Positions 3,409-32,720 of a DNA stretch of 64,000 nt are shown here, in pieces (the stretch's first letter is position 1; each line of letters opens with the position of its first letter). Source of the stretch: Phaeacidiphilus oryzae TH49 (GTDB lineage: Bacteria; Actinomycetota; Actinomycetes; Streptomycetales; Streptomycetaceae); assembly GCF_000744815.1 (NCBI RefSeq), contig NZ_JQMQ01000004.1, positions 62,001 to 126,000 on the forward strand. The letters run 5' to 3'. The translations under genes were made by a program, and so were the position numbers. The notes under the pieces are model-generated. The model did not search any database, was not told the DNA's origin, and saw only the letters and a list, made by a program, of their open reading frames with translations.

Positions 3409-3488
3409 CTCGCGGCCGAACGGGTGGGCGGACCTCCGGGGCGGCGGCCGGATACCGAGATCAACGGGAAAGCGCGGACGATTCCGCC

Positions 3489-3494
3489 TAGGGT
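3489..3494 (+). promoter_or_regulatory. -10 hexamer of a leaderless gnd promoter
   Basis: TAGGGT matches the Streptomyces TANNNT -10 pattern and ends 7 nt before the ATG at 3502. Transcription would therefore start at or next to the start codon. No Shine-Dalgarno box is visible, which agrees with a leaderless mRNA. I saw no clear -35 element. Confidence 0.45.
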
Positions 3495-3501
3495 CGGCGC
3501 T

Positions 3502-4941
3502 ATGGCTGAGAAGGCGGAGATCGGTGTCACCGGACTCGCGGTGATGGGACGGAATCTGGCGCGCAACCTCGCTCGGCACGGGCACCGGGTCGCGGTGCAC
3601 AACCGGACCGAGGCGCGCACGCGGTCGCTGGTGGAGGAGTTCGGCTCGGAGGGCGACTTCCTCCCGGCCTACAGCGCCCAGGAGTTCGTGGACGCGCTGG
3701 AGCGCCCGCGGCGGCTGGTCGTCATGGTCAAGGCCGGCGGGCCCACGGACGCGGTGATCGAGGAGTTCGCCCCGCTGCTGGAGCCCGGGGACATGATCGT
3801 GGACGGCGGCAACGCCCATTACCTGGACACCCGGCGGCGGGAGAAGGCGCTCCGTGAGCGCGGCATCCACTTCGTGGGCACCGGGATCTCCGGCGGCGAG
3901 GAGGGCGCGCTGAACGGGCCGAGCATCATGCCCGGCGGGTCGGCGGAGTCCTGGGAGGCGCTCGGACCGCTGCTGACCGACATCGCGGCGGTCGCCGAGG
4001 GCGAGCCCTGCTGCAGCCACCTGGGCCCGGACGGCGCCGGGCACTTCGTCAAGATGGTCCACAACGGCATCGAGTACTCGGACATGCAGCTCATCGCCGA
4101 GGCCTACGACCTGCTGCGCAGCGGGCTGGGCAAGAAGCCGGCGGAGATCGCGGAGACCTTCCGGAAGTGGAACGAGGGGCGGCTGGACTCCTATCTGATC
4201 GAGATCACCACCGAGGTCCTCGCCCATACCGACGCCGACACCGGCAAGCCCTTCGTGGACATCGTGCTGGACCAGGCCGAGCAGAAGGGCACCGGCCGCT
4301 GGACCGTGCAGACCGCGCTGGACCTGGGCATCCCGGTGACCGGCATCGCCGAGGCGACCTTCGCCCGTTCGCTCTCCGGCAGCGCCGGGCTGCGCGAGGC
4401 GACCGAGGGGGTGCTGCCCGGCCCCGAACGGAAGGCGCTGACCGGGGCGGAGGCGGACGGCTTCGCCGACGCGATCGAGGAGGCGCTCTTCGCGTCCAAG
4501 ATCGTGGCCTACGCCCAGGGCTTCAACATGATCCAGGCCGGTTCCGCGGAGTACGACTGGAACATCGACCTGGGGGCGGTGGCCCGGCTGTGGCGGGGCG
4601 GCTGCATCATCCGCGCCCGCTTCCTGAACCGGATCACCGAGGCCTACGCCGAGGACCCGGCGCTGCCCACGCTGCTGACCGCGGACTACTTCCGGGACGC
4701 GCTGGCCGGCGCGCAGACCGGCTGGCGCCGGGTGGTGGCCGAGGCCGCCCGGCTGGGCATTCCGGCCCCGGGCTTCTCCAGCGCCCTGGCCTACTACGAC
4801 GGGCTGCGCGCGGCCCGCCTGCCGGCCGCCCTGATCCAGGGCCTGCGGGACTACTTCGGCGCCCACACCTACCACCGCACCGACCGCTCCGGGACCTTCC
4901 ACACCCTCTGGGGCGGCGACCGCACCGAGGTCGAGCCGTGA
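3502..4941 (+). CDS. gnd: 6-phosphogluconate dehydrogenase (decarboxylating)
   Basis: The 479-residue length fits the long, NADP-type 6PGDH found in enterobacteria and many actinomycetes. Visible signatures are the Rossmann start IGVTGLAVMGRNLARN with the NADP-selecting HNRT, the substrate loop FVGTGISGGEEGA, the HFVKMVHNGIEY helix carrying the catalytic Lys and Asn, and the C-terminal tail TYHRTDRSGTFHTLWGG. The enzyme converts 6-phosphogluconate to ribulose 5-phosphate, CO2 and NADPH in the pentose phosphate pathway. The ATG at 3502 was chosen because the conserved N-terminus starts there and a -10 hexamer sits just upstream. A strong hairpin follows the gene. Confidence 0.97.
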   Translation: MAEKAEIGVTGLAVMGRNLARNLARHGHRVAVHNRTEARTRSLVEEFGSEGDFLPAYSAQEFVDALERPRRLVVMVKAGGPTDAVIEEFAPLLEPGDMIVDGGNAHYLDTRRREKALRERGIHFVGTGISGGEEGALNGPSIMPGGSAESWEALGPLLTDIAAVAEGEPCCSHLGPDGAGHFVKMVHNGIEYSDMQLIAEAYDLLRSGLGKKPAEIAETFRKWNEGRLDSYLIEITTEVLAHTDADTGKPFVDIVLDQAEQKGTGRWTVQTALDLGIPVTGIAEATFARSLSGSAGLREATEGVLPGPERKALTGAEADGFADAIEEALFASKIVAYAQGFNMIQAGSAEYDWNIDLGAVARLWRGGCIIRARFLNRITEAYAEDPALPTLLTADYFRDALAGAQTGWRRVVAEAARLGIPAPGFSSALAYYDGLRAARLPAALIQGLRDYFGAHTYHRTDRSGTFHTLWGGDRTEVEP

Positions 4942-4986
4942 CCACCGGGTGATCGACCGGGTGACACCGGCTGAATCCCGGCCAAC

Positions 4987-5022
4987 CTCAGCCGCCCCCA
5001 AGCCATTTGGGAGGCGGCTGAG
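4987..5022 (+). terminator. Hairpin terminator after gnd
   Basis: The arms CTCAGCCGCC and GGCGGCTGAG, extended inward by CCAA/TTGG pairs, leave a short GCCA-type loop. The hairpin begins 45 nt after the gnd stop. No long T run follows, as is usual for streptomycete terminators. Confidence 0.7.
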
Positions 5023-5057
5023 TCGTTCTCGGGGCCCTGGGGCGGAAGCCGGGGTTC

Positions 5058-5067
5058 TATGTACATA
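5058..5067. promoter_or_regulatory. TATGTACATA palindrome upstream of the PE-PPE gene
   Basis: A perfect 10-bp palindrome lies about 80 nt upstream of the secreted hydrolase start, in a locally AT-richer stretch. It could be a regulator site or part of the promoter; no factor can be assigned. Confidence 0.3.
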
Positions 5068-5149
5068 CGCGTTCGCAAACACTACTGTGTGACGCGGACA
5101 GGACAGGGCACCGAGTCCTGCCGTCCAGCCACAGGGGGAACAGACCATC

Positions 5150-5926
5150 GTGAAGGCAATCAGCCTGGTTCGCCGTGCCGCCGCCGTCACCGCCTCGGCG
5201 GCGGCGCTCGCACTGACCGCCGCCGTCGCCCCGGCCACCGCTCACGCGGACGCTCCGGGCCACTACTACATCGAGGTCGGCGGCACTGGGGCCACGCCGC
5301 CGGCGCCGCACTGCACCTACTCCTACGACGCCGCGAACGGGGCACTCCGACTCGGCTCCGCCGCGATCCCGGTGTGCTACCCGGCCACCGCCGGACCGGT
5401 CATCGGCACCAGCGGTCCGCTGGTCGACCTCGGCAACGGTCAGGTGCACCCGGACGCACTGACGGCGCCGAGCTTCGACGCCAGCGTCCAGCAGGGCTAC
5501 CGGAACACGCTGAAGGCGGCCGAGGACACCTACCACGCCCATCCGAACGCGCGCATCACGATCACCGGCTACTCGCAGGGCGCACTGGTCGCGGACCAGG
5601 TGCTGCAGACCATCGCGCACGGCACCGACATCCCGAGCTCGCAGGTGGACGGCATGCTTTACGCCGACCCGATGCAGCCCGGCACCGGCCTCGGCACCCT
5701 CCTCCCCAAGGGGGTGGGCATTCCCGGCCTGATCACCTCGCCGGGCGCGGGGCCGGTCGACTTCGGCCGCATCCCGGTCGAGCGGTACTGCCTGACCGGC
5801 GACCCGATCTGCAATGTCACGCCCACCGACCTCGGAGGCTATGTCAGGCAGCACCCCCGCTACCCCACCGACGTCATCCCGCAGACCCTCGGCCGGGACG
5901 GCGGCAACGGCACCACCATGCTGTAG
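5150..5926 (+). CDS. Secreted PE-PPE domain serine hydrolase
   Basis: This 258-residue protein has a clear Sec signal peptide (about residues 1-34, cleavage near AHA-DAP). The mature part resembles the PE-PPE (alpha/beta hydrolase, cutinase-like) domain. The nucleophile elbow GYSQGA places the catalytic Ser at residue 142. Conserved features include ARITITGYSQGALVADQV and a later DPxxP-like segment (YADPMQPGTG). Two cysteine pairs fit an exported, disulfide-bonded enzyme. Family members cleave ester bonds in lipids or small esters. The GTG start at 5150 fits the signal peptide. The gene stands alone, between the gnd terminator and a long bidirectional hairpin. Confidence 0.8.
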   Translation: MKAISLVRRAAAVTASAAALALTAAVAPATAHADAPGHYYIEVGGTGATPPAPHCTYSYDAANGALRLGSAAIPVCYPATAGPVIGTSGPLVDLGNGQVHPDALTAPSFDASVQQGYRNTLKAAEDTYHAHPNARITITGYSQGALVADQVLQTIAHGTDIPSSQVDGMLYADPMQPGTGLGTLLPKGVGIPGLITSPGAGPVDFGRIPVERYCLTGDPICNVTPTDLGGYVRQHPRYPTDVIPQTLGRDGGNGTTML

Positions 5927-5943
5927 AGCCCACCGCCGGGTGA

Positions 5944-5993
5944 GGACGGGCCCCGGGAACCGGTCGACAGCGACCGGTTCCCGGGGCCCGTCC
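5944..5993. terminator. Long bidirectional terminator between convergent genes
   Basis: A perfect inverted repeat with 23-base arms (starting GGACGGGCCCCGGG) and a 4-nt loop lies between the convergent PE-PPE gene and the accE end. It can terminate both directions and forms the physical left edge of the biosynthetic cluster. Confidence 0.85.
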
Positions 5994-5996
5994 CGC

Positions 5997-6221
5997 TCAA
6001 CGGCGCCAGCTGGTGGGGGAGTGGTAGGGGGCGTCGCGCTCGGGCCTGGTCCAGCGGGGCCCGGACGGCGCCGGGCGGCCGGGATCCGGGCCGGTCCCGC
6101 CCGCGCGGGTGAGGAGCACCGCGGTCAGCGCGGCGAGCTCGTCCTCGGCGAGGCTGCCGCGCTCGACACGGATCAGCGGGCCGGATTCCGGCACGACGGT
6201 CACTGTCATGGTCACGGTCAT
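5997..6221 (-). CDS. Acyl-CoA carboxylase epsilon subunit
   Basis: This 74-residue protein has the compact layout of actinomycete AccE/PccE subunits: an N-terminal strand (PLIRVERGSLAEDELAAL) and helix, then a Pro-rich linker, and a C-terminal WxxRPER-like element (RWTRPERDAPYH). Epsilon subunits are small activators that bind the beta subunit and stimulate carboxylation. The ATG at 6221 lies 12 nt after the beta-subunit stop, so the two genes form an operon. The same SARP-type promoter should drive both, tying them to the neighbouring polyketide cluster. Confidence 0.85.
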   Translation of the reverse strand: MTVTMTVTVVPESGPLIRVERGSLAEDELAALTAVLLTRAGGTGPDPGRPAPSGPRWTRPERDAPYHSPTSWRR

Positions 6222-6233
6222 GGGCTGGGCTCC

Positions 6234-7796
6234 TCACTGCGGTGGGTTGCCGTGCTTGCGCTGGGGCAGGTCGGCGTGCTTGGTGCGCAGCATGTGCAGG
6301 GAGCGGATGAGGACCTCGCGGGTCTCGGCGGGGTCGATGACGTCGTCGACCAGTCCGCGTTCGGCCGCGTAGTAGGGGTGGATGAGCTCGGCCTTGTACT
6401 CCTTGACCATGCGCCGGCGCATGGCCGAGCCCGCCTCCGGACTCTCAGCGTCGGCGGCGGCGATCTGGCGGCGGAAGATGACGTTGGCGGCGCCCTCGGC
6501 GCCCATCACCGCGATCTCGTTGGTGGGCCAGGCGTAGGACAGGTCCGCGCCCACCGAGCGGGAGTCCATCACGATGTAGGCGCCGCCGTAGGCCTTGCGC
6601 AGGATCAGCGAGATCCGCGGGACGGTGGCGTTGCAGTAGGCGTACAGCAGCTTGGCGCCGTGCCGGATGATGCCGCCGTGCTCCTGGTCCACCCCGGGCA
6701 GGAAGCCGGGCACGTCCAGCAGGGTGAGGATGGGGATGTTGAAGGCGTCGCACATCTGCACGAAGCGGGCGGCCTTCTCGCTGGCGTTGATGTCCAGCAC
6801 CCCGGCCAGGGCCTGCGGCTGGTTGGCCACGATCCCCACCACCTGGCCGTCCATCCGGGCCAGGGCCACGATCACGTTGGTCGCCCAGCGCTCGTGGATC
6901 TCCAGGTACTCGCCCTCGTCCACCAGGGACTCGATCACCGCGCGCATGTCATAGGGCCGGTTGCCGTCCGCGGGCACCAGGTCCAGCAGGTCCTCGCAGC
7001 GCCGGCTCGCGGGGTCCTCGGTGACCTGCGCGGGCGGCATCTCCCGGTTGTTGGCCGGCAGCAGCGACAGGAGGTAGCGCACCTCCTCCAGGCAGGACTC
7101 CTCATCGTCGTAGGCGAAGTGGCACACCCCAGAGACCTCGGCATGCACGTCCGCGCCGCCCAGGCCGTTCTGGGAGACCTGCTCGCCGGTGACGGCCTGG
7201 ACCACGTCCGGGCCGGTGATGAACATCTGGCTGGTCTCGCGGACCATGAAGACGAAGTCGGTGAGCGCTGGGGAGTAGGCCGCGCCGCCCGCGCACGGGC
7301 CCAGCATCACCGAGATCTGCGGGATGACCCCGGAGGCCCTGGTGTTGCGCTGGAAGATCCCGCCGTAGCCGGCCAGCGCGGTCACGCCCTCCTGGATCCG
7401 GGCGCCGGCCCCGTCGTTGAGGGAGATCAGCGGCGCGCCCGCGGCGATGGCCATGTCCATGATCTTGTGGATCTTGGTGGCGTGGGCCTCGCCCAGCGCC
7501 CCGCCGAAGATCCGGAAGTCATGGGCGTAGACGAACACCGTCCGCCCGTGCACGGTCCCCCAGCCGGTGATCACCCCGTCGGTGTAGGGCTTCTTGTTCT
7601 CCAGCCCGAACCCCGAGGCCCGATGCCGCCGCAACGGCTCCACCTCGTTGAAGGACCCCTCGTCCAGCAACAACGCGATCCGCTCCCGCGCCGTCAGCTT
7701 GCCCTTGGCATGCTGCGCCTCGGTCGCCCTCTCACTCGGACCCGCCACAACCTGGTCCCTGATCCGGCCGAGTTCCTCGACCTGCTCGGTCAGCAT
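6234..7796 (-). CDS. Acyl-CoA carboxylase beta (carboxyltransferase) subunit
   Basis: This 520-residue biotin-dependent carboxyltransferase belongs to the PccB/AccB family. The N domain holds KGKLTARERIALLLDEGSF and the oxyanion turn LNDGAGARIQEGV. The C domain holds the GGAYIVM loop, with the second oxyanion turn RKAYGGAYIVMDSRSVGAD. It transfers CO2 from carboxybiotin to acetyl- or propionyl-CoA. The start was set at the ATG at 7796 because GAGGAG lies just upstream; an upstream in-frame start at 7841 has no such support. A SARP-type promoter at 7848-7890 points at this gene, which argues that it supplies extender units to the PKS. No biotin-carrier alpha subunit is nearby. The residue that selects acetyl versus propionyl was not resolved. 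Confidence 0.93.
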   Translation of the reverse strand: MLTEQVEELGRIRDQVVAGPSERATEAQHAKGKLTARERIALLLDEGSFNEVEPLRRHRASGFGLENKKPYTDGVITGWGTVHGRTVFVYAHDFRIFGGALGEAHATKIHKIMDMAIAAGAPLISLNDGAGARIQEGVTALAGYGGIFQRNTRASGVIPQISVMLGPCAGGAAYSPALTDFVFMVRETSQMFITGPDVVQAVTGEQVSQNGLGGADVHAEVSGVCHFAYDDEESCLEEVRYLLSLLPANNREMPPAQVTEDPASRRCEDLLDLVPADGNRPYDMRAVIESLVDEGEYLEIHERWATNVIVALARMDGQVVGIVANQPQALAGVLDINASEKAARFVQMCDAFNIPILTLLDVPGFLPGVDQEHGGIIRHGAKLLYAYCNATVPRISLILRKAYGGAYIVMDSRSVGADLSYAWPTNEIAVMGAEGAANVIFRRQIAAADAESPEAGSAMRRRMVKEYKAELIHPYYAAERGLVDDVIDPAETREVLIRSLHMLRTKHADLPQRKHGNPPQ

Positions 7797-7847
7797 CCGG
7801 CTCCTCGTCGCTCGGTGTTCCGCCGCGGACGGCCTCCGCACCCTCCG

Positions 7848-7890
7848 TCTCTACCGCCGCGGTCTTGAGGCCGACTCGAACGGCACTCAG
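7848..7890 (-). promoter_or_regulatory. SARP-type promoter of accB-accE
   Basis: Read on the minus strand, heptamers CTGAGTG (7884-7890), TCGAGTC (7873-7879) and TCAAGAC (7862-7868) step by exactly 11 nt. After 8 nt comes the hexamer TAGAGA (7848-7853). This is the known arrangement for ActII-ORF4/DnrI-type SARP binding, with direct heptamers at one helical turn and 8 nt from -10. The accB start is about 50 nt downstream. Confidence 0.65.
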
Positions 7891-7911
7891 GCCCGGTGCG
7901 CGCGCCGTCCG

Positions 7912-7954
7912 CCCAGCCGGATTTGAGCACCGCTCTAGGCCGCCCGGCCAGCAT
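7912..7954 (+). promoter_or_regulatory. SARP-type promoter of the O-methyltransferase operon
   Basis: Heptamers CCCAGCC (7912), TTGAGCA (7923) and TCTAGGC (7934) are spaced by 11 nt. After 8 nt comes CAGCAT (7949-7954). The three heptamers align one for one with those before the ketoreductase gene (CCGAGCG, TTGAGGT, TCTAGGT). The O-methyltransferase starts 50-56 nt downstream. Together with the accB promoter this forms a bidirectional control island. Confidence 0.65.
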
Positions 7955-8004
7955 CGGTTCCCAGAACGGAAGACCCGCGCCATCGGAATTGCGGCCGCAA
8001 AGGG

Positions 8005-9066
8005 ATGCAGATGACCATTGTCAGCAGTACTCCGCCGAGTGAATTCGAGGACACGAGCACCGCGGCGATCACCACACTGCGCGAGATCGCGTTGGCCGCC
8101 GCCGCGCCCGCGGCACTGCGGGCCGCCATCCGGACGGGCGTCGCCGACGCGGTCGGGGACGCCCCCGTCCCGCTGGACCGGCTGGCCAAGGAGCTGGCGG
8201 TGGACGCCGGAGTCCTCGGGCGGCTGCTGCTCAACCTGGAGCAGTACGGCGTCTTCGCCCGCACTCCGGACGGCTACACCCACACCGCGACCTCCCGGCT
8301 GCTACGCGAGGACGACCCGCACAGCCTGAAGTACTGGGTCCTGTGGGTCACCGAGCCGTGGGCCTGGGAATTGTGGCCGCATCTCGACGAGGCCGTCCGC
8401 AACACCGGGAAAAACCTCTTCGAGGAGAAATACGGCGCCGAATTCTTCGCCTACCTGCACAAGGAATGGCCGGATTCCACGGAGATCTTCAACCGGTCCC
8501 AGACCGAGCTGAGCCGGCTCACCTCGGCGGCACTGGCCGAGGCGCTGGACCTGTCCGGGGTGCGGACCCTGGCGGACGTCGGGGGCGGCCGCGGCTACAC
8601 GCTGTCCACCCTGCTGGAGGCGAACCCGGGGCTGCACGGCACCCTGGTCGACCTGCCGGCCGCCGTCGCCCACCCGGACCCGCGGCTCCGTCCCGGTGGC
8701 GCGCTGGCCTCCCGCTCCCGCGTGGTGGAGGGCGACTGCCTGCGGCGGATCCCGGTCGAGGCCGACGTCTACCTCTTCAAGAGCATCCTGGAGTGGGACG
8801 ACGAGCGGACCGTCACCGCGCTGCGGAACGCCGCCGAGGCCGCCCGTCCGGACAGCCGGATCCTGGTCGCCACCAACCTGGTCGACGACAGCCCGGAGAT
8901 CCGCTACGCCACCGGCATCGACCTCCTCTTCCTGCTGAACACCAACGGCCGCCGGCACACCAGGAGCGGCATCACCGGGCTGGTGGAGCGGGCCGGCCTG
9001 CGGGTCGAGGGGGTCAGCGCGGTCCGCCCCCTCCTCCACGTGGTCGAGGCCGCCGTCCGCCGCTGA
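8005..9066 (+). CDS. SAM-dependent O-methyltransferase
   Basis: This 353-residue enzyme is of the plant/bacterial O-methyltransferase type used on aromatic polyketides. An N-terminal dimerisation and winged-helix domain (about residues 20-110) precedes the Rossmann SAM domain. Motif I reads LADVGGGRGYTLSTLL, and an acidic strand (TLVDLPAAV) follows. The conserved segment YLFKSILEWDDERTVTALRNA lies where the catalytic His/Asp region usually is; an E-W-D is seen here rather than the common H-x-W-D. It probably methylates a phenolic hydroxyl of the polyketide. A second in-frame ATG at 8011 is an alternative start. It is the first gene of an eight-gene operon running to 17747. Confidence 0.88.
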   Translation: MQMTIVSSTPPSEFEDTSTAAITTLREIALAAAAPAALRAAIRTGVADAVGDAPVPLDRLAKELAVDAGVLGRLLLNLEQYGVFARTPDGYTHTATSRLLREDDPHSLKYWVLWVTEPWAWELWPHLDEAVRNTGKNLFEEKYGAEFFAYLHKEWPDSTEIFNRSQTELSRLTSAALAEALDLSGVRTLADVGGGRGYTLSTLLEANPGLHGTLVDLPAAVAHPDPRLRPGGALASRSRVVEGDCLRRIPVEADVYLFKSILEWDDERTVTALRNAAEAARPDSRILVATNLVDDSPEIRYATGIDLLFLLNTNGRRHTRSGITGLVERAGLRVEGVSAVRPLLHVVEAAVRR

Positions 9067-9080
9067 CCGAGGAGGCCAGG

Positions 9081-10346
9081 ATGACCACCCAGACCACGGC
9101 CCCGCCCGGGGCCGGAGCCGAGCACGACGCCAACGAGGCGCTGGCGGAGATCCTCTTCTCGCCCGAGGGCAGGATCGACCCGTACGCGCGCTACCACCGG
9201 CTGCGGGCCGCAGCGCCCGTCCACCGCAGTCCGATGGGGATGTGGGCGCTCACCCGCTACCAGGACGTCTTCGAGGCGCTGCGGGACAAGCGGGTCGGCA
9301 AGGACGTCCACGCCTTCCTGGCCGGCCGGTTCAGCGGGGAGTGGGAGCAGCACGCGGCCCTCCGCAGGCTGGCCTCCACCATGCTCTGGGCGAATCCGCC
9401 CGAGCACACCCGGATGCGCCGGATCGTCAATGCCGCCTTCACCAAGGAACGGGTGCTGCGGCACCGCGCGTTCGTCGAGCGGCGGGTGGCGGAACTGCTC
9501 CAGCCCTTCATCGAGGCCGGCGGCGGGGACATCTGCAACGACTTCTGCTATCTGCTGCCGATCAGCGTGGTCGCCGGCCTGGTCGGCGTCCCGCAGGAGG
9601 AGGCGCCGGGGCTGCGGGCGCCGATCCGGGACTTCCAGCGGACCTTCGAGCTGGGGATGACCGCGCTGGAACTGCGGGTGGCGGACGAGGCGGCGGAGTA
9701 CCTCGACGACTACTTCCGCGCCCTGGTGGCCCGGAAGCGGCGGGAACCCGGCGACGACCTCCTCTCCGCGCTGATCGCCGCCGAGGACGACGACCCGCTG
9801 GACGACGGCGAGTTGGCCGTCATGTGCCATATGCTCATCGCGGCCGGCTCGGAGACCGCCACCCACTTCCTCGACAACGGCATCCGGCTGTTCATCGAGC
9901 ACCCGGACCAGGCGGAGCTGGTCCGCCGCGACCCCGCCCTGCTGACCAGGGCGATCGAGGAGGTGCTCCGCTACGACCCGCCGGTGCACATCCTGCCCCG
10001 GACGGTCAGCGAGCCGCTGGAGGTGAACGGCCTGCGGATCCCGGCGGGCTCCCGGCTGATGCTGCTGATCGCGGCGGCCAACCGGGACCCCGAGCGGTTC
10101 ACCGACCCGGACGTCTTCGACGTCACCCGGGACCAGGGGATGTCCATCTCCTTCGGCGCCGGCATCCACGGCTGCCCCGGCTGGCGGCTGGCGCGACTGC
10201 AGGCGGAGGCCGTCTTCGGCACCCTGCTGCGCCGCTTCCCGCAGCTGGAGATCACCGAGCCGCCGCGCCCGCAGCCGCGGGTCACCCTGCCCGGCCTGGA
10301 GGCCCTCCGGGTACGGCTGGGCCCGGACGCGGGGGAGGTCCGATGA
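9081..10346 (+). CDS. Cytochrome P450
   Basis: This 421-residue P450 has the heme loop FGAGIHGCPG with the cysteine ligand at residue 365. It has an EVLR (ExxR) K-helix and a PERF meander. The I-helix reads AAGSETATH, so the acid-alcohol pair is Glu258-Thr259 instead of the usual Asp-Thr. Bacterial class I P450s take electrons from ferredoxin; no ferredoxin gene lies in the cluster. The enzyme should hydroxylate or couple the polyketide intermediate. The ATG at 9081 follows a GGAGG-type box and lies 14 nt after the methyltransferase stop. Its stop overlaps the SCP2-like start (ATGA). Confidence 0.95.
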   Translation: MTTQTTAPPGAGAEHDANEALAEILFSPEGRIDPYARYHRLRAAAPVHRSPMGMWALTRYQDVFEALRDKRVGKDVHAFLAGRFSGEWEQHAALRRLASTMLWANPPEHTRMRRIVNAAFTKERVLRHRAFVERRVAELLQPFIEAGGGDICNDFCYLLPISVVAGLVGVPQEEAPGLRAPIRDFQRTFELGMTALELRVADEAAEYLDDYFRALVARKRREPGDDLLSALIAAEDDDPLDDGELAVMCHMLIAAGSETATHFLDNGIRLFIEHPDQAELVRRDPALLTRAIEEVLRYDPPVHILPRTVSEPLEVNGLRIPAGSRLMLLIAAANRDPERFTDPDVFDVTRDQGMSISFGAGIHGCPGWRLARLQAEAVFGTLLRRFPQLEITEPPRPQPRVTLPGLEALRVRLGPDAGEVR

Positions 10347-10747
10347 CCACCGCCACGGCACTCCGCTTCCTCTCCGAGGCGTATCTGGCGGAGCTGGCGG
10401 GGCTCCCCCCGCAGCGGGGGCGGCCGGTGCCCGGGGTGGGCGCCCGGGTCGGCTTCCGGGTGCCGGACGCCCCCGAGGGGCCGGCCGAGTTCTCGCTGCT
10501 GGTCGAGGAGGGCCTGGTGGCGGGGACCGCTCGCGGCCTGCCCGCGGGCGCGGACCTGGAGATCACCGCGGCCTACCGCGACCTGGCGGAGTTCCAGGAG
10601 GGCAGCCTCCACGCCGCCACCGCCTTCGTCACCGGCCGGTTCGCGGTGACCGGTGACAAGGCCAAGCTGCTCGACCTGATGGTGGTGCTCCAGTCCGGGC
10701 GGTACCACGAGCACACCGCTGACCTGTGGGCCCGGACCACGCTGTGA
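10343..10747 (+). CDS. SCP2 sterol-binding domain protein
   Basis: This 134-residue protein shows the SCP2/sterol-carrier fold. Beta strands (GARVGFRVPD, FSLLVEEGLV) precede the conserved motif ADLEITAAYRDLAEFQEGS, and the ending FAVTGDKAKLLDLMVVLQ matches the family G(K)xxxDxxKLxxL element. Family members bind lipids or hydrophobic small molecules; several serve as carriers or ligand-binding partners. It overlaps the P450 stop by 4 nt (ATGA), so it is translationally coupled to an oxygenase. A role in holding or shuttling a hydrophobic aromatic intermediate is my inference. Confidence 0.75.
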   Translation: MTTATALRFLSEAYLAELAGLPPQRGRPVPGVGARVGFRVPDAPEGPAEFSLLVEEGLVAGTARGLPAGADLEITAAYRDLAEFQEGSLHAATAFVTGRFAVTGDKAKLLDLMVVLQSGRYHEHTADLWARTTL

Positions 10748-10776
10748 GGAACCAGGAACCAGGAACCAGGGAACCA
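10748..10776 (+). repeat. Tandem 7-nt repeat GGAACCA (four copies)
   Basis: Three exact GGAACCA units are followed by a one-base slip and a fourth unit, right after the SCP2-like stop and before the halogenase Shine-Dalgarno. It is noncoding and looks like replication slippage. Confidence 0.8.
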
Positions 10777-10798
10777 GGCACTGACAGGAGGACGAACG

Positions 10799-12043
10799 AT
10801 GCGCGGTGAGTACGACGTCGTCGTGGTGGGCGGAGGCCCCAGCGGCGCCACTGCCTCGGCGCTGCTGTCCATGTGGGGCCGGCGGGTGCTGCTGCTGGAG
10901 AAGGAGAAGTTCCCCCGCTACCACATCGGCGAGTCGCTGATCCCCGGGATCACCCCGGTCATCCAGGAGCTGGGCGCCACCAGCGCCCTGGAGGCCCTGG
11001 AGCCCCTGGGCGCCCAGCGGAAGAACGGCGTCACGCTGATCTGGGGCCCCAGCCCCGAGCCGTGGACCATCCGCTTCGACGAGATCGCCTCGGACGCCCC
11101 CGTCCGGGAGGCCGGCGCCCGCCCGTACGCCTACGAGGTGAAGCGGGCCGACTTCGACAACATGCTGCTGACCCACTCCCGCCGGGCCGGCACCACGGTG
11201 ATCGAGGAGGCCCACGTCCGCCAGCCGATCTTCGAGGGCGAGCGGTGCGTCGGCGTCCGGTACACCACCGGCAGCTCGGACGAGGCGGTCGACGTCCGGG
11301 CCCCGCTGGTGATCGACGCCTCGGGACAGGCCAAGCTGATGGGCCGGCGCTTCGGCAGCGTGGACTGGCACTCGGACCTGAAGAACCTCGCGGTGTGGAC
11401 CTACTACCAGGGCGGCAGCCGGCTCGACGGGGACGACGCCGGGAACATCGTGGTGGAGGCCTGCCCGCCGGGCTGGCTCTGGATGATCCCGTTCAGCGAC
11501 GGCACCTGCAGTGTGGGCTATGTCGCGCCCAGCGAGAGGTTCGCCACCTCGGAACTGCTCCCGGCGGACCTCCTCTACCGCCAGATCGGCGAGACCGCGC
11601 AGATCAGCAAGCTCCTCTCCGGCGCGGTGGAGGTCTCCCAGGTGCGCACGGCCAAGGACTGGTCGTACACCTGCGAGCGGATGAGCGGCCCCGGCTTCCT
11701 CCAGGTCGGCGACGCGGCGGCGTTCATCGACCCGCTGTTCTCCACCGGGGTGATGCTCGCCCTCAAGGGCGGCTCGCTGGCGGCGCACGCGGCGCACCGC
11801 GTCCTCGACGACCGGGACTCGGAGTCCCGGCTGCTGGAGTCCTACGAGAAGGAGTACCACGCGGTCCTGGACGTGGTGATCGACTTCGTCCGGTTCTTCT
11901 ACGACCAGAACAAGGAGGTCGAGGAGTACTTCGAGAAGGCCCGCGACCTGATCGACCCGGCGGACCTGCGGAAGGCCCGGGAGGACTTCATCGTCCTGGT
12001 CTCCGGGCTGGCCAAGGCGGTCGAGGGCTGGGAGCTCGCCTAG
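10799..12043 (+). CDS. Flavin-dependent halogenase-family oxidoreductase
   Basis: This 414-residue FAD protein starts with the dinucleotide motif VVVGGGPSG (Gly11-Gly16). It carries the HIGES element near residue 45 and the halogenase signature WxWxIP as W226-L-W228-M-I230-P231. A typical second FAD motif follows (FLQVGDAAAFIDPLFSTGVMLA). Its length is short compared with tryptophan halogenases (about 510-550 aa) and closer to halogenases acting on carrier-bound or phenolic substrates. WxWxIP also occurs in some non-halogenating relatives, so chlorination is likely but not certain. AGGAGG lies 7 nt before the ATG. A flavin reductase that could supply FADH2 is encoded at 30971-31555. Confidence 0.8.
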   Translation: MRGEYDVVVVGGGPSGATASALLSMWGRRVLLLEKEKFPRYHIGESLIPGITPVIQELGATSALEALEPLGAQRKNGVTLIWGPSPEPWTIRFDEIASDAPVREAGARPYAYEVKRADFDNMLLTHSRRAGTTVIEEAHVRQPIFEGERCVGVRYTTGSSDEAVDVRAPLVIDASGQAKLMGRRFGSVDWHSDLKNLAVWTYYQGGSRLDGDDAGNIVVEACPPGWLWMIPFSDGTCSVGYVAPSERFATSELLPADLLYRQIGETAQISKLLSGAVEVSQVRTAKDWSYTCERMSGPGFLQVGDAAAFIDPLFSTGVMLALKGGSLAAHAAHRVLDDRDSESRLLESYEKEYHAVLDVVIDFVRFFYDQNKEVEEYFEKARDLIDPADLRKAREDFIVLVSGLAKAVEGWELA

Positions 12044-12108
12044 GGGAGGCGGACATCCTCCCGGCCCCGACCCGCCCCTCGTCCACGAAAGGCTGGCAGA
12101 TCCCGACG

Positions 12109-13398
12109 ATGAACCAGACCGTGCCGGCGAGTGACGTCGACCCGTTCGCTCCCGAGGTCCTCGCCGATCCCTACCCGATGTACACGAGCCTGCGCGAGGC
12201 CGGCCCGCTCGTCTGGCTGGAGCGCTACGGGGTCTGGGCCTCCGCGCGGTACGCCACCGTGCGGGCGGCCGTCCTCGACCACGACACCTTCAGCTCCGCG
12301 ACCGGGGTCGGGCTCGCGGACCTGTCCCGCCGGCAGCCCGCCTCGGACCGGGACGCCGGAATGGCGGGCGGCGACCGGGAGGCCGGCTGGCGTACCCCCA
12401 GCCTGCTGCTGGAGCAGGACCCGCCGGACCACACCAGGGCCCGCCGGGTGGTCGGCTCCGTCCTCTCGCCGAGCGCGGTCCGGGCCAAGGCCGACGCGTG
12501 GGCGGCGGAGGCCGAGACCATGGTCCGCGCGCTGGTCGGCACCGGCGAGTTCGACGCGGTGAGCAGGCTGGCCCAGGAGTTCCCGCTGCGGCTCTTCGCG
12601 GACGCCGTCGGGCTGCCCCGGGAGGGCAGGGCGGAGCACCTGCTGCCCTTCGCGGACTTCGCCTTCAACGCCTTCGGCCCGCCCAACGAGCTCTTCCGCA
12701 AGTCGGTCTCCTCGGGGAACACCGCACTGCCCTGGGTGGTCCGGCACTGCTACCCCGACCGGCTGGACCCGGACGGCTGGGGCGCGCGGATCCACGCCCT
12801 GGCCCTCCGCGAGGGGTACAGCCGGGACGAGGGCGCGGTGCTGGTGCGCTCGCTGCTGGCCGCCGGGATCGACACCACGGTACGGTCCCTCGGCACGGTG
12901 CTGTGGCTGCTGGCCACCCACCCCGAGCAGTACGCGGAGCTGCGCGCCCGGCCGGAGCTGATCCGGCCGGCCTTCGACGAGGCGGTGCGCCTGGAGTCGC
13001 CGACCCGGATGTTCTTCCGCTCGGTCACCGCGGACACCGTCCTGGACGGGGTGGAGCTGCCCGCGGGCAGCCGGCTGCTGCTCCTCTTCGGGGCGGCCAA
13101 CCGGGACCCGCGCCGCTGGGACCGGCCGGAGGAGTTCGACATCACCCGCAGGTCCGGCGGCCATCTGGGCTTCGGGGTGGGCATCCACGCCTGCGTCGGG
13201 CGGATCGTCGCCTATCTGGAGGCGGAGGTCATGCTCCGGGCGCTGATCCGGTGGGCGCCCGTCCTGCGGGCCGGCGGACCGCCGCGCTGGCACCTCAACA
13301 ACACCATCCGGGGCCTGGCCGAGCTTCCGCTCACCCTGGCCTCCGGTGAAGAGACCGGCGGCAGCCGGCCGAACGGAGGAGACGATGGCCCGCACTGA
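12109..13398 (+). CDS. Cytochrome P450
   Basis: This 429-residue second P450 has a canonical I-helix, AAGIDTTVRS (Asp255-Thr256). The K-helix is EAVR, and the heme loop FGVGIHACVG places the cysteine ligand at residue 362. It is clearly distinct from the P450 at 9081, so the two probably act at different positions. Its N-terminal DPFAPEVLADPYPMYTSLREAGP is typical of bacterial CYPs. The start lies 65 nt after the halogenase-like gene without a clear promoter, so the operon continues. Its 3' end overlaps the next start by 14 nt. Confidence 0.95.
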   Translation: MNQTVPASDVDPFAPEVLADPYPMYTSLREAGPLVWLERYGVWASARYATVRAAVLDHDTFSSATGVGLADLSRRQPASDRDAGMAGGDREAGWRTPSLLLEQDPPDHTRARRVVGSVLSPSAVRAKADAWAAEAETMVRALVGTGEFDAVSRLAQEFPLRLFADAVGLPREGRAEHLLPFADFAFNAFGPPNELFRKSVSSGNTALPWVVRHCYPDRLDPDGWGARIHALALREGYSRDEGAVLVRSLLAAGIDTTVRSLGTVLWLLATHPEQYAELRARPELIRPAFDEAVRLESPTRMFFRSVTADTVLDGVELPAGSRLLLLFGAANRDPRRWDRPEEFDITRRSGGHLGFGVGIHACVGRIVAYLEAEVMLRALIRWAPVLRAGGPPRWHLNNTIRGLAELPLTLASGEETGGSRPNGGDDGPH

Positions 13399-14961
13399 CC
13401 CCTGGTGGTCCGGGCACGGCGGCTATGCCGCCCGGATCATGTCGGCACTGGCGGCGGAGCCGGACCGGACGGCCGTCCACTGGCGCGGCCGGGCGGTCGG
13501 CGCCGCCGACTTCGCCGGGGCGGTCACCGGCACCGCCCGGACCCTCCGCGAGCACGGGGTGGGCCCGGGCCGGGTGCTCGGCGTACTGGTCGCCCCGAAC
13601 AGCCCGGACATGCTCTCCGCCCGCTACGCCGCCCATCTGGTGGGCGCGGCGGTCTGCTATCTCCGCTCCACCAACGCCGGCTCCACCGGCCCGGTGCTCT
13701 CGGCGGACGAGCAGCTGCGGATCCTCCTCGACACCGGCGCCGCCGCCCTGCTGGCCGACGCCGAGAACGAGGAGCGGGCGCGGACCCTGGTGGAGCGGGC
13801 CCGCGGCCGGATCGCGCTGCTCGGCGCCGCCGAGGCGCGAAGCGTCCGGGAGGAGCCGGGCCCGGCGGCCGCCTGGGACCCGCCGGCGCCCGCCGTGATC
13901 GGCCTGACCAGTGGAAGCACCGGCCGTCCCAAGGGCATCCTGCTCTCCGCGCGCGGCTGGACCAGCCGGGTCGAGGCGGCGATGGCCTCCAGCACCCCGG
14001 GCGAGGAGGTCCGGATCCTGGTGGTCACCCCGCTCAGCCACACCGTCGGCCCGATGGCCGACGCGGTGCTCGCCTCCGGCGGCAGCGTGCTGCTCCATGA
14101 GCGGATGCGCCCGGAGGAGGTGCTGCGGGCCGTCGAGGAGCACCGCGTCACCCGCACCTACCTGGCCACCCCGCACGTCTACGAGCTGGCCGACCGCTAT
14201 CGGGCGGACGGCGGCGACCTGTCCTCGCTGCGGCAGGTGGTCTACGGCGGCTGCCCGGCCTCGCCCACCCGGATCGTCGAGGCGGCCGAGCTGCTGGGAC
14301 CCGTCCTGGTCCAGGGCTACGGCGCCAGCGAGAGCGGCCGGATGACCTTCCTCGGCCCCCACGACCACCTGGACCCGGAGACCGCCGGCACCGTGGGCCG
14401 CCCCTTCCCCGGCGTACGGATCAAGGTCTGCCGACCGGGCACCGACCAGGAGGCGCCGGCCGGCGAGACCGGTGAGGTCTGCGTCAGCTCCCCGCACCTG
14501 ATGGAGGGGTACTGGGGCGACCCGGCGCGTACCGCGCGGACCCTGCGCGGGGGCTGGTACCACACCGGCGACCTCGGCCATCTGGACGCCCAGGGCAGGC
14601 TGCACCTCCTCGGCCGGATCGCCGACGTGGTGAAGACCGAGGGGATCAAGGTCTATCCGGCGATCGTCGAGCGGGAGATCCTCCGGATGCCCGCGGTCGC
14701 CCAGGCGGCGGTCTACGGGGTCCGCGACGAGAGCGACATCGAACACGTCCATGCGGCGGTCGTGCCCCGAGCGGGCGCGCGCGTCACCGCCGAGGAAGTC
14801 CGCGACCGGGTCGGCGCGGCGCTGTCCGGGCTGCACGCGCCCGAGGAGGTGCTGCTGCTGGACGCGATGCCGCTCAGCACCTCGGGCAAGCCGGACCGCA
14901 GCCTGCTGCGCCGGAAGAGCAGTGCCCTGGTCGGAACCGCGTCCGGAAGGTGGTCCCAGAC

Positions 14962-14965: not shown

Positions 14966-16199
<1,234 letters not shown>

Positions 16200-21559: not shown

Positions 21560-21602
21560 CCGAGCGCGTCTTGAGGTGCCTTCTAGGTGGCCTGGTTACG
21601 TT
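21560..21602 (+). promoter_or_regulatory. SARP-type promoter of the ketoreductase/PKS operon
   Basis: Heptamers CCGAGCG (21560), TTGAGGT (21571) and TCTAGGT (21582) step by 11 nt. After exactly 8 nt comes TACGTT (21597-21602), a full TANNNT hexamer. This is the best match in the window to the known SARP promoter layout. The ketoreductase ATG is 36 nt downstream. Confidence 0.72.
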
Positions 21603-23611: not shown

Positions 23612-24087
23612 ATGCAGGCCCAGCAGGGCATCGGCGACCGGGAACTGCTCGGTCCCTGGCGGCTGACGTCGCACTACTTCCTCGAGCCGGACGGCTCGAC
23701 CGGGCCCGGCCCGTGCGGAGAGCGGGCCGAGGGACTACTGATCTACGAGGCGCACGGATACATGTCCGCCGCGCTGATGGCCGGCGCCGGCTCCGGGGCC
23801 GGCTCCGGGCCGCGGTGCCGTACCTGGGCTACTCCGGGCGCTGGCGGGTGGCCGGCGACCGGCTCGTCCACCGCGTCGCCGTCGGCTCCCACGCCCGGGT
23901 GGTGGGCACCGAGCAGATCCGGGAGGCCCGGCTGGAGGGGGACCGGCTGACCCTGCGCGAGAGCCTGGGCGCGGGCCGGTACCTGGTACTGGAGTGGCGG
24001 CGGGCCGAACCGGCCGCGGCCGCGATGGCTGGTGAGGAGAGGACCATGCAGAGGAACGGCTTCGAGACCACCGGGGGCGGCAGGTGA
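23612..24087 (+). pseudogene. Lipocalin-like domain protein, frameshifted
   Basis: The first part, from ATG 23612, reads GPWRLTSHYFLEPDGSTGPG and LLIYEAHGYMSAALM, the start of the lipocalin-like domain (about 140 aa). The rest of the domain is in another frame: YLGYSGRWRVAGDRLVHRV, then VVGTEQIREARLEGDRLTLRE, ending at 24087. Joining them needs one extra base, best placed at the GGG run 23807-23809 (a fourth G restores the frame). The stop overlaps the KS-alpha GTG start (GTGA), as expected for a coupled gene. Such small proteins bind hydrophobic ligands and are often found in polyketide clusters. Whether the break is real or a sequencing error is open. Confidence 0.75.
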
Positions 24088-25352
24088 GCCGCCGGGTGGC
24101 GATCACCGGACTGGGCGTACGGGCGCCCGGGGGAGCGGGCCGGGACGCGTTCTGGCGGCTCCTCTCCGAGGGACGCACGGCGACCCGGCGGATCTCCTTC
24201 TTCGACCCCTCCCCGTACCGCTCCCAGGTGGCCGCCGAGGTGGACTTCGACGCCGCCGCGGAGGGCCTGACGCCCCGGGAGGTCCGGCGGATGGACCGGG
24301 CCACCCAGTTCGCGGTGGTCTGCGCCCGGGAGGCGGTGGCCGACAGCGGGCTCGACCCGGCGGCACTGCCGCCGCACCGGGTCGGGGTGAGCCTGGGCAG
24401 TGCGGTCGCCGCCGCCACCAGCCTGGAGCAGGAGTACCTGGTGCTCTCGGACTCCGGCAGGCGCTGGGAGATGACGCCTGAGCACCTCTCCCCGCACATG
24501 TTCGACTACATGATCCCCAGCATCATGCCGGCCGAGATCGCCTGGGCGGTCGGCGCCGAGGGGCCGGTGGCGATGGTGTCCAACGGCTGCACCTCGGGGC
24601 TGGACTCGGTCGGCCACGCCGCCGCGCTGATCCGGGAGGGCAGCGCGGACGTCATGGTGGCGGGCGCCGCGGACACCCCGATCACCCCGATCGTGGTGGC
24701 CAGCTTCGACGCGATCAAGGCCACCACGACCTACAACGACGACCCGGAGCACGCCTCCCGGCCCTTCGACGGCACCCGCAACGGCTTCGTCCTGGCCGAG
24801 GGCGCGGCGATGTTCGTCCTGGAGGACCTGGCGGCCGCCCAGCGGCGGGGGGCGCATGTCTACGCCGAGATCGGCGGGTACGCCACCCGCTGCAACGCCT
24901 ACCACATGACCGGCCTCAAGGCGGACGGCCGGGAGATGACCGAGGCGATCAGGGCCGCCCTGGACCAGGCCAGGCTGGACCCCACCGCGGTGGACTACGT
25001 CAACGCCCACGGCTCCGGCACCAAGCAGAACGACCGGCACGAGACCGCGGCCTTCAAGCGCAGCCTGGGCGAGCACGCCTACCGCACCCCGGTCAGCTCG
25101 ATCAAGTCCATGGTCGGCCACTCGCTGGGGGCGATCGGCTCGGTGGAGATCGCCGCCTCGCTGCTGGCGATCGAGCGGCAGCTCGTGCCGCCGACCGCCA
25201 ACCATCAGGTCAGGGACCCCGAGTGCGATCTGGACTATGTGCCGAGGGAGGCCAGGGAGCACCGCACCGACACCGTGCTGACGGTCGGCAGCGGCTTCGG
25301 AGGCTTCCAGAGCGCGATGGTGCTCGGCAGGGTGAAGGAGCGGGCGGCATGA
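24084..25352 (+). CDS. Type II PKS ketosynthase alpha
   Basis: This 422-residue KS has the active-site Cys169 in [10 protein letters not shown], the same number as in the actinorhodin KS. The catalytic histidines are in [12 protein letters not shown] and [12 protein letters not shown]. It forms a heterodimer with the chain length factor and catalyses decarboxylative condensations of malonyl-ACP. The overall match is to aromatic type II KS enzymes rather than FabF. The GTG at 24084 overlaps the stop of the lipocalin-like gene, and its stop overlaps the next ATG. Confidence 0.97.
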
Positions 25353-26578
25353 GTGTGATCACCGGTGTGGGCGTGGTCGCGCCGAACGGTGTGGGCGTCA
25401 AGGAGTTCTGGGCCGCGACACTGTCCGGCCGGGGTGGCATCGGCGAGCTCGACCGCTTCGACACCGCGGGGCTGCCCGCCCGGCTGGCCGGGCAGGTCGC
25501 CCTGGAGGCGGCGCAGTACCTGCCCAGCCGGCTGCTGCCGCAGACCGACGTGTCCACCAGGATGGCACTGATCGCCGCACAGGCCGCGATCGAGGACGCC
25601 GAGCTGGACACCGAGGCCACCACCGACTACGACATGGGCGTGGTGACCGCCAACGCCTCCGGCGGCTTCGCGTTCACCCACCGCGAGTTCAACAAGCTGT
25701 GGTCGCGCGGCTCCCAGCACGTCAGCGCCTACGAGTCGTTCGCCTGGTTCTACGCGGTCAACACCGGCCAGATCTCCATCCGGCACGGGATGCGGGGCCC
25801 GGGCTGCGCGCTGGTCGCGGAGCAGGCCGGGGGGCTCGACGCGCTCGGCCAGGCCCGGCGCGGCCTCCGGGCCGGCACGCCGGTGATGGTGGCCGGCGGT
25901 GTGGACTCGGCCCTCGACCCCTGGGGCTGGGTCTCCCACCTCTCCAGCGGCCGGGTCAGCACCGACCCCGACCCCCGCACCGCGTACCGGCCCTTCGACG
26001 GCCGGGCCGGCGGCTACGTCCCCGGTGAGGGGGGCGCGATCTGCGTACTGGAGGACGCCGCGGCGGCCCGCGCCCGGGGCGCCACCGGCTACGGCGAACT
26101 CGCCGGGTACGCCGCCACCTTCGACCCCCCGCCGGACAGCGGGCGCCCGCCGGGGCTCCGCCGGGCCGCCGAACTCGCCCTGGCGGACGCCGGGGTCGCG
26201 GCGGAGGAGGTGGACGTGGTCTACGCCGACGCGGCCGGCGTCCCCGAGCTGGACCGGGCCGAGGCCCAGGCGATCCGGGAGGTCTTCGGGAACCGGCGGG
26301 TGCCGGTCACCGCGCCCAAGGCGCTCACCGGCCGGCTGTTCTCCGGCGGCGGGCCGCTGGACGTGGTGTGCGCCCTGATGAGCATGCGGGAGCGGGTGAT
26401 CCCGCCGACCTTCGGCACCGCCTCGGTACCCGACGCGTACGGGATCGACCTGGTGACCGGCGAGCCGCGGGAGGCCCGGGTGGAGACCGCCCTGGTGCTG
26501 GCCCGGGGGCGCTGGGGCTTCAACTCGGCCGTAGTCCTCAAGGGCGCGCGGCCCGGCGGAGGAGGAGAGCGACTGTGA
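25349..26578 (+). CDS. Type II PKS chain length factor (KS beta)
   Basis: This 409-residue KS homologue has the catalytic Cys replaced by Gln159 in [12 protein letters not shown], the hallmark of a chain length factor. The second catalytic His is also lost ([12 protein letters not shown] where KS-alpha has VNAHGSGT). It pairs with KS-alpha and sets chain length. The gating residues that separate octaketide from longer chains could not be judged without an alignment. The ATG overlaps the KS-alpha stop (ATGA), which ensures equal synthesis. Confidence 0.96.
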
Positions 26579-31619: not shown

Positions 31620-31650
31620 AGTGTCCCCGCGGCTCTCCAGGCGGACTCGA
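31620..31650 (-). promoter_or_regulatory. Possible SARP-type promoter of the flavin reductase
   Basis: On the minus strand TCGAGTC (31644-31650) and TGGAGAG (31633-31639) are 11 nt apart, but the hexamer GACACT (31620-31625) follows after 7 nt rather than 8. It is weaker than the other six sites. Confidence 0.35.
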
Positions 31651-31656
31651 GGCCGG

Positions 31657-32442
31657 CTAACTGCTGACCAGGATCTCCTGGTGAATCCGCCTGGCCTCGG
31701 GAGAGGGCTCGAGGCCGAGTTCCTCGTCCAGCACCCGGCGCAGCTGGTGGTACACGTTCAGCGCCTCGCTGCGCCGGCCGGAGCGGTGCAGCGCCTGCAT
31801 CAGCCGGACGTGGAAGGACTCGTGGAGGTGGTGGGTGGCCACCAGCGCCCGGAGCTCGCCGACCAGCTCGCGGTGGCGGTTGTTGGCGAGGTCGGCCTCG
31901 ATCCGCAGCGAGACCGCCTCCAGCCGCTGCTCCTCAAGGAAGACGGAGAGGCCCTGCAGGAAGGGGCCGTGGACGATGTCCGCCGGGAGCGGGCCGCGCC
32001 ACAGCTCCAGGGAGGCCCGGAGCTGCTCGGCGGCGACCGCCGGCTCGCCCTGGTCCAGACTGCTCCGCCCCTGTTCCAGAAGGCGCTGAAAGGTGAACAC
32101 GTCAACGTTGTCACGCGGGACCGCGAGGAGGTAGCCGCCCGGCCGGGTGGTGAGCGGCTGGGGACGCTGCGGGCCGTGGAAAGTGCGCCGGAAAAGCTTG
32201 CGCAGCTGATATACATAGGTCTGCACGATTGTCTTCACGGTACGCGGCGGACCATAGGGCCAGAGTTCGTCTATCAACTGCTCGGTGCTGACCATCGTAT
32301 TGGCGTTCACGGCGAGCATGGCGAGGACCTGGCGAAGTTTCACCGCGGTCACCTGGAAGGGCGGATCTTCTGCGGGTCTGCCGAGCGGGGGAGTTATTTC
32401 TAATGGTCCGAGAAGGCTGATCCTGATCTGGTCGCTGATCAT
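31657..32442 (-). CDS. SARP family pathway activator
   Basis: This 261-residue protein is the size of ActII-ORF4/DnrI. It has the OmpR-like winged helix (about residues 8-100; QVTAVKLRQVLAMLAVNANT, TVKTIVQTYVYQLRKLF, TRPGGYLL) and then the bacterial transcriptional activation domain (about 105-255), ending GLEPSPEARRIHQEIL. It recruits RNA polymerase at heptamer repeats. Codon 14 is TTA (32401-32403), so translation should depend on the bldA leucyl-tRNA and come late in development. The ATG at 32442 has GGGGAG 8 nt upstream; longer in-frame starts lack this. Matching heptamer promoters occur at six places in the cluster. Confidence 0.95.
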   Translation of the reverse strand: MISDQIRISLLGPLEITPPLGRPAEDPPFQVTAVKLRQVLAMLAVNANTMVSTEQLIDELWPYGPPRTVKTIVQTYVYQLRKLFRRTFHGPQRPQPLTTRPGGYLLAVPRDNVDVFTFQRLLEQGRSSLDQGEPAVAAEQLRASLELWRGPLPADIVHGPFLQGLSVFLEEQRLEAVSLRIEADLANNRHRELVGELRALVATHHLHESFHVRLMQALHRSGRRSEALNVYHQLRRVLDEELGLEPSPEARRIHQEILVSS

Positions 32443-32496
32443 TCCTGATCTCCCCGTGGTGTGCTGCACTCTGGTTGTGAACGCTACCCGAAGCCG

Positions 32497-32550
32497 GTCG
32501 CTTTGCAAACCCCGGGGCGGATGGGTCGCATGTGCGCGATTCAAAGCGAC
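32497..32550. promoter_or_regulatory. Inverted repeat upstream of the SARP gene
   Basis: GTCGCTTTG (32497-32505) and CAAAGCGAC (32542-32550) are perfect complements 36 nt apart, located 55-108 nt upstream of the SARP start. The centres are about four helical turns apart, which would suit two repressor or activator half-sites. The controlling factor is unknown. Confidence 0.45.
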
Positions 32551-32677: not shown

Positions 32678-32720
32678 TCGATGCGCGCTTGAGCGGGGAT
32701 CGAGTGGAGAACGCCAGGGT
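32678..32720 (+). promoter_or_regulatory. SARP-type promoter of the ActIV-like gene, leaderless
   Basis: Heptamers TCGATGC (32678), TTGAGCG (32689) and TCGAGTG (32700) step by 11 nt. After 8 nt comes CAGGGT (32715-32720). The ATG lies 6 nt after the hexamer, so the transcript would start at the start codon. No Shine-Dalgarno box is visible, in agreement. Confidence 0.68.

Follow-up and report, generated by a model that had tools for sequence, protein, structure and literature searches.

SARP operators are described as heptameric direct repeats that overlap the -35 region (PMC10972967), and PimR binding is described as requiring two repeats at minimum (PMC5930380). In the operators of the DnrI, ActII-ORF4, and FdmR1 type, three heptameric direct repeats lie upstream of the target genes, as PMC10972967 sets out. 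A link between a SARP and carboxylase supply may be found in Streptomyces coelicolor, for which PMC8062868 reports that loss of the SARP CpkO lowered AccA1/AccA2 and CpkK and left AccB/AccE generally unchanged; the coelimycin AccA1 and AccA2 are four residues apart (PMC8062868, PMC6667686). The same organism has AccB2/AccE2, which were recovered with AccA1 and AccA2 and were active when reconstituted with alpha (PMC13118682), so that an extra beta/epsilon pair can, by that account, work with a shared alpha subunit; the terms "SARP," "gene cluster," and "conversion" are absent from the main text of that paper. Gene conversion has been described between homologous modular PKS/NRPS genes of one genome (PMC11915812), and PMC11195616 mentions it solely in the title of a reference about modular PKS. 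Among the papers listed in literature searches, no title or abstract opening describes conversion between a cluster accB and a housekeeping accB.

The locus described here lies in a window of 64,000 nucleotides, by which we mean the whole stretch of DNA analyzed. Like the coelimycin (cpk) locus, it has duplicate carboxylase subunits in an apparently SARP-controlled polyketide cluster, and coelimycin is the precedent for SARP-linked carboxylase supply, an arrangement of a known kind. Whereas the near-identical copy in the coelimycin system is the alpha subunit, the cluster here holds beta and epsilon only; the coelimycin PKS is of type I. The CpkO sites are stated to be unknown in PMC6667686, whereas arrays are visible here. 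In contrast to the DnrI, ActII-ORF4, and FdmR1 systems, two outward-facing arrays share a single gap, and the gene served by one of the two resembles those of primary metabolism. Unlike the modular PKS/NRPS case, the conversion proposed here would pair a gene of the cluster with a carboxylase gene that apparently belongs to primary metabolism. Overall, we give a probability of about 75% to the reading that divergent SARP promoters drive accBE and the O-methyltransferase (O-MT) gene and so raise malonyl-CoA together with the PKS, and that the body of accB has been gene converted.

The gene cluster and its regulator

We took the cluster, which has a type II PKS, to extend from accE (5997) to about 33.7 kb, a length of roughly 28 kb. 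Its rightward part starts with genes for the O-MT, an SCP2-like protein, a flavin halogenase-like enzyme, and two AMP-ligases. Further genes encode an aminotransferase, a BBE oxidase, NmrA-like and SnoaL-like proteins, a ketoreductase, KS-alpha, and the chain length factor, and the distal genes encode a cyclase, an antiporter, an oxygenase, an FMN reductase, the SARP, and a metallo-beta-lactamase-fold enzyme (Table 1). The SARP has an N-terminal Trans_reg_C winged helix with the BTAD after it, and EmbR and AfsR are its solved relatives. It is the only small SARP found, the genome's three other BTAD matches lying in frames of more than 1,000 residues. The gnd gene (3424-4941) was considered as a cluster-borne duplicate of a primary-metabolism gene and was rejected, as it is the sole full-length match in the genome.

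Table 1. Features of the accBE/O-MT region and of the cluster, in window coordinates
Feature	Position	Strand	Remarks
accE, epsilon subunit	5997..6221	-	74 aa; Pfam ACC_epsilon PF13822
accB, carboxyltransferase beta subunit	6234..7796	-	AccB type; Ile408
Main tract shared with the other accB, proposed gene conversion tract	6450..7752	-	1298/1303 bases (0.996); 5 mismatches
-10-like TAGAGA	7853-7848	-	8 nt past last accB-side heptamer
Left-facing array, accB side	7890-7884, 7879-7873, 7868-7862	-	Three heptamers; 11-nt period
Right-facing array, O-MT side	7912..7940	+	Weak unit 7912-7918; clear units 7923-7929 and 7934-7940
-10-like CAGCAT	7949-7954	+	8 nt past last O-MT-side heptamer
O-methyltransferase	8005..9066	+	Heads rightward run; second ATG 8011 a possible start
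SARP-type array before ketoreductase/KS run	21560..21588	+	8 nt, then TACGTT 21597-21602
KS-alpha and chain length factor, type II PKS	24084..26578	+	
SARP-type array before FMN reductase	31633..31661	-	Abuts 3' end of SARP gene
Small SARP regulator	31657..32544	-	Trans_reg_C and BTAD; ATG 32442 possibly the true start
SARP-type array, SARP/metallo-beta-lactamase-fold gap	32678..32706	+	Start of downstream gene taken as ATG 32727

Divergent heptamer arrays between accB and the O-MT gene

Small SARPs recognize heptamers with the consensus TCGAGNN, the last repeat being about 8 nt from the -10 element. We scored arrays with a loose matrix on this heptamer. The 208 nt that separate accB (ATG 7796) from the O-MT gene contain two divergent SARP-type arrays, one facing each gene. 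The left array reads, on the minus strand, CTGAGTG, TCGAGTC, and TCAAGAC with the spacers ccgt and ggcc, followed after 8 nt by TAGAGA; the right array reads, on the plus strand, a weak CCCAGCC and the clear units TTGAGCA and TCTAGGC, followed after 8 nt by CAGCAT. Both arrays thus have the build of small-SARP operators (direct-repeat heptamers, 4-nt spacers, and an 11-nt period), and each -10-like hexamer agrees with TATAAT at three of six positions, with the same 8-nt spacing on either side. The interval 7848-7954 is exactly the span from one hexamer to the other.

The sequence-only reading had placed one heptamer array pointing left and one pointing right within these 107 nt, and mapping and shuffling confirm it. 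Array scores peak at a period of 11 on both strands, the next-best periods on the minus strand being 15 (14.3 with two units and 15.3 with three) and 13 (14.2 with three units). Among 5,000 dinucleotide shuffles of the gap, one equaled the left array (three units), nine equaled the right array (two units), and none equaled both. When all 64 kb of the window were shuffled 60 times, the best score averaged 14.7 and reached 19.8 at the highest; by this standard the left array (score 18.4) was within chance on its own, so that its significance comes from position. At a threshold of 14, the 27.7-kb cluster has 13 array matches, overlapping and off-register matches being counted apart, and 12 of these fall in, or at the borders of, four intergenic gaps: accB/O-MT, SnoaL-like/ketoreductase, FMN reductase/SARP 3' end, and SARP/metallo-beta-lactamase fold, this last one provided that the gene on its right begins with ATG 32727. 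The remaining match (15409, minus strand) is intragenic. At this threshold, no array occurs in the 36.2 kb of window sequence that flank the cluster or in 52.5 kb scanned elsewhere in the genome.

The looseness of the matrix, the one whole-window shuffle of 60 that attained 19.8, and the match inside a gene are what would be expected if the arrays were chance matches in G+C-rich DNA. However, the remaining high scorers all lie in cluster gaps, with none in the 88.7 kb of control DNA, and the arrays are conserved in relatives (see below). A chance origin is rejected on position and conservation, for which single-array scores alone would not suffice, and we regard it as extremely improbable. Since arrays of the same build stand in four gaps and are absent from the control DNA, and since the cluster has a SARP gene of its own, shared control of accBE and the PKS genes, as proposed from the sequence at the outset, is probably the best reading.

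A simple consensus scan of positions 5850-8100 detected no sigma-70-like promoter and no terminator; the former result fits, weakly, a requirement for an activator. Between the convergent accE and cutinase-like genes lies a 50-nt stretch (5944-5993) that is 92% self-complementary and is likely a two-way terminator without a T run. At the other end of the cluster, the bases of the array at 32678-32706 give a score on either strand, the other strand aiming at the SARP gene itself. The metallo-beta-lactamase-fold gene there looks leaderless, its ATG coming 6 nt after a -10-like CAGGGT.

Conservation of the arrays in related clusters

Twelve relatives of the O-MT locus were compared, comprising nine loci and three of four further genomes (G239, locus L027, was omitted because its O-MT sequence is the same as that of L010). 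Arrays scoring at least 13 occur upstream of the O-MT homologue at 10 of the 12 loci (the exceptions are L007 and L014), and in 6 of the 12 the array is followed after 8 nt by CAGCAT or CACCAT. Upstream of KS-alpha, arrays are present at all six loci scanned, with scores of 18.0 to 22.8 and the same gap to the -10 element. Several further cluster genes in the relatives lack arrays, among them the NmrA-like genes (0/5) and the metallo-beta-lactamase-fold genes (0/3).

In none of the relatives does accB adjoin the O-MT gene, and the accB genes of the related clusters L013 and L026 have no array directly upstream. Opposite-strand arrays scoring at least 13 lie upstream of the O-MT gene at 4 of the 12 loci (L010, L011, L012, and L015), some of them perhaps just the back of the forward array. 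Conservation of the divergent architecture as such was rejected, because accB is next to the O-MT gene in none of the relatives. The O-MT half is old in this cluster type, and accBE probably joined the O-MT gene in this lineage, because the relatives lack accB there.

This pattern bears on a narrower interpretation, in which SARP control is genuine on the O-MT side alone, the array facing accB arose by accident, and a different, constitutive promoter drives accBE. It would agree with the O-MT array being the conserved half and with the accB half having no orthologue for comparison. The accB-side array is, however, the stronger one, with three units at exact spacing and a score that was so rarely equaled in the gap shuffles, and the scan around accBE offered no sigma-70-like promoter for constitutive expression. 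We consider this interpretation rather doubtful and favor control of both sides by the SARP.

Carboxylase subunits and the proposed supply of malonyl-CoA

The accB product has a full-length carboxyl transferase domain; among solved structures, the beta chain of an acetyl-CoA carboxylase is nearest to it, and the epsilon gene accE is directly downstream. We take the position that separates acetyl from propionyl preference to be that of PccB 422 in S. coelicolor, with Ile and Asp as the alternatives. The equivalent position 408 is Ile in all 107 AccB copies compared, the window copy included, and Asp in the genome's own PccB-like protein (L003). The alignment against AccB and PccB that had been suggested for reading this preference thus places the subunit in the acetyl-CoA type; Ile408 makes malonyl-CoA the likely main product, and propionyl-CoA specificity was judged unlikely on the same residue. 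The S. coelicolor acetyl-CoA carboxylase is described as accepting propionyl- and butyryl-CoA too (PMC13118682).

Biotin carboxylase folds are encoded at 10 places in the genome, none of them near the window, and the contig itself has just one, a weak fragment at a distance of about 320 kb. This genome-wide survey bears out the earlier remark that no alpha subunit is nearby. Since there is none locally, the alpha subunit has to come from elsewhere, as had also been proposed; the candidates are the loci C5:672791, next to the gene of the PccB-like protein, and C5:4470997. The cluster AccB and AccE may assemble with such a housekeeping alpha and carboxylate acetyl-CoA.

In the mechanism that we propose from the sequence, the cluster SARP would bind both direct-repeat arrays, each of which is next to a poor -10 element, and would recruit RNA polymerase outward, to the left for accB-accE and to the right for the O-MT gene and the tailoring genes that follow. 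The two subunits AccB and AccE would then join the housekeeping biotin-carrying alpha subunit and increase acetyl-CoA carboxylase capacity, and through this effect on flux the supply of malonyl-CoA would rise together with the PKS. The sequence-only reading went further in holding that malonyl-CoA would be raised only when the polyketide is made. This overstates the case: the second accB of the genome has no array and should supply malonyl-CoA at other times. The cluster may be said to recruit building-block supply with an enzyme that is nearly the everyday one, only its switch being different. For yield engineering, this predicts that SARP overexpression would lift accBE too and that the housekeeping alpha may then become limiting.

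Mosaic identity of accB

The genome's second accB, at C5:4778740, is 98% identical in protein to the cluster copy. The upstream DNA of the two copies (identity, 0.48) and accB codons 1 to 14 (0.47) are dissimilar, and the main shared tract begins beyond them (Table 1). A patch that is not shared (6449-6424), with a 15-nt length difference, interrupts the shared sequence, after which 185 of 190 bases (0.974) are identical over 6423-6234, so that the conversion tract probably continues there. At the base level, accE has identities to the other accE of 0.55 at its start, 0.92 in its core, and 0.65 at its end, where 37 of 106 bases mismatch. The accE core (6180-6103) is 92% identical to the other accE and its flanks are not; it may be either another small patch of conversion or a motif that is conserved.

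To compare accE among loci, we used a simple rule that gave a candidate at 37 of 73 loci, of which 35 were used after L059 and L076 were dropped. The window pair has identities of 0.991 for accB and, in protein, 0.571 for accE, whereas in the eight other pairs whose accB identity exceeds 0.96, accE is at 0.89 or higher (six of these eight are among four related loci). One intragenomic pair, L030/L060 of G029, has the same pattern as the window pair, with 0.959 for accB and 0.385 for accE. A near-identical accB body beside a diverged accE argues for gene conversion and against plain recent duplication. In a quick tree, both accB copies of the genome are sisters (support, 100) inside a clade that has 54 of the 55 housekeeping-like copies, which suggests that the donor was probably of the housekeeping type and gives the likely direction of transfer. 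Pfam had no match to three reading frames adjacent to the other accB, so the housekeeping role of that gene is assigned by similarity. A run test within the gene gave a P value of 0.32 for the window pair, because the body is uniformly near identical, and the case for conversion in this pair is therefore carried by the sharp borders and by accE.

The sister relationship, together with the generally faster divergence of epsilon than of beta subunits, would also be consistent with a recent duplication of the whole of accBE, followed by rapid change in accE and with no conversion. Against this, the accB body has only 5 mismatches in 1,303 bases compared with 37 in 106 at the accE end, the upstream DNA is unrelated, and the eight other pairs with similar accB have all kept accE alike. 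We consider duplication alone unlikely. The preferred reading is that the genome's other accB overwrote the coding body of the cluster accB by intragenomic gene conversion, and that the promoter, the first codons, and most of the epsilon partner would have remained cluster specific.

The presence within a biosynthetic cluster of a second, nearly identical copy of a gene that is likely essential could also point to self-resistance, in which the product would inhibit acetyl-CoA carboxylase and the second beta subunit, possibly by gene dose, would protect the producer. Beyond the N terminus, however, the protein differences amount to a short insertion and its edge (450-457) and residues 461 and 472, many genomes of the family have additional copies of accB (see below), and a type II KS or a chain length factor is in view of 15 of 51 secondary accB loci, which fits supply better. 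With so few differences between the two copies, self-resistance was judged very unlikely.

Secondary accB copies in the family

Among 121 family genomes, an accB that passes the threshold is present in at least 104, and at least 60 have two or more, counted among the matches listed. Secondary copies were picked by hand among the matches listed (E values up to 1e-230), so the survey leans to similar copies, and the duplicates L059, L049, and L046 were left out. "Housekeeping" refers to the best-scoring copy per genome and not to synteny; G029 has two copies so labeled. The run test used 374 variable third positions and 62 intragenomic accB pairs from 38 genomes, with a cutoff of P ≤0.005. Conversion-like tracts were found in 20 of the 62 pairs (15 of the 38 genomes), compared with 2 of 400 random intergenome pairs; the controls were run at 300 and then at 1,000 permutations and the pairs at 1,000, and the outcome was unchanged. 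Seventeen of the significant pairs join a housekeeping-like and a secondary copy (14 genomes), and three are between secondary copies. The longest exact accB run, 1,505 bases between L107 and L070 of G044, could equally well reflect a fresh duplication or a near-perfect conversion.

Homologues of KS-alpha, of the chain length factor, or of a SARP are in view at 25 of the 51 secondary loci (flanks of up to 9 kb), and cluster genes are in view of 8 of the 19 secondary copies that belong to significant pairs. We consider it somewhat more probable than its opposite that secondary accB genes across the family, including those in biosynthetic clusters, evolve together with the housekeeping accB, conversion having repeatedly overwritten parts of their catalytic bodies while promoters and epsilons stayed distinct and an alpha-matched beta was kept. 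If so, a cluster would rewire only the timing of the beta subunit, the window would be an almost complete case, and the SARP arrays in the window would sit on an unconverted promoter. As the mosaics in accB suggest, conversion between primary and specialized metabolism may be favored where a partner subunit is shared, and accB trees, if used for tracing cluster genes, can mislead.

Arrays scoring at least 13 precede 3 of the 51 secondary accB genes (L076, L082, and L084), all three of which have a SARP gene at a distance of about 3 kb or less, versus 0 of 55 housekeeping-like accB genes. This enrichment is not significant (Fisher P = 0.11), and the median array scores are opposite in direction (2.9 for secondary and 4.4 for housekeeping-like copies); the counts are suggestive and do not prove a trend. 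At L082 (G092, 8281-16151), a SARP gene and accB have antiporter and phosphoglucose isomerase genes close by, the second of these being one more gene of primary metabolism. At L076 (G101, 3564-11086), accB is right behind the SARP gene, and genes for YcaO, an oxidase, and a carrier protein are near.
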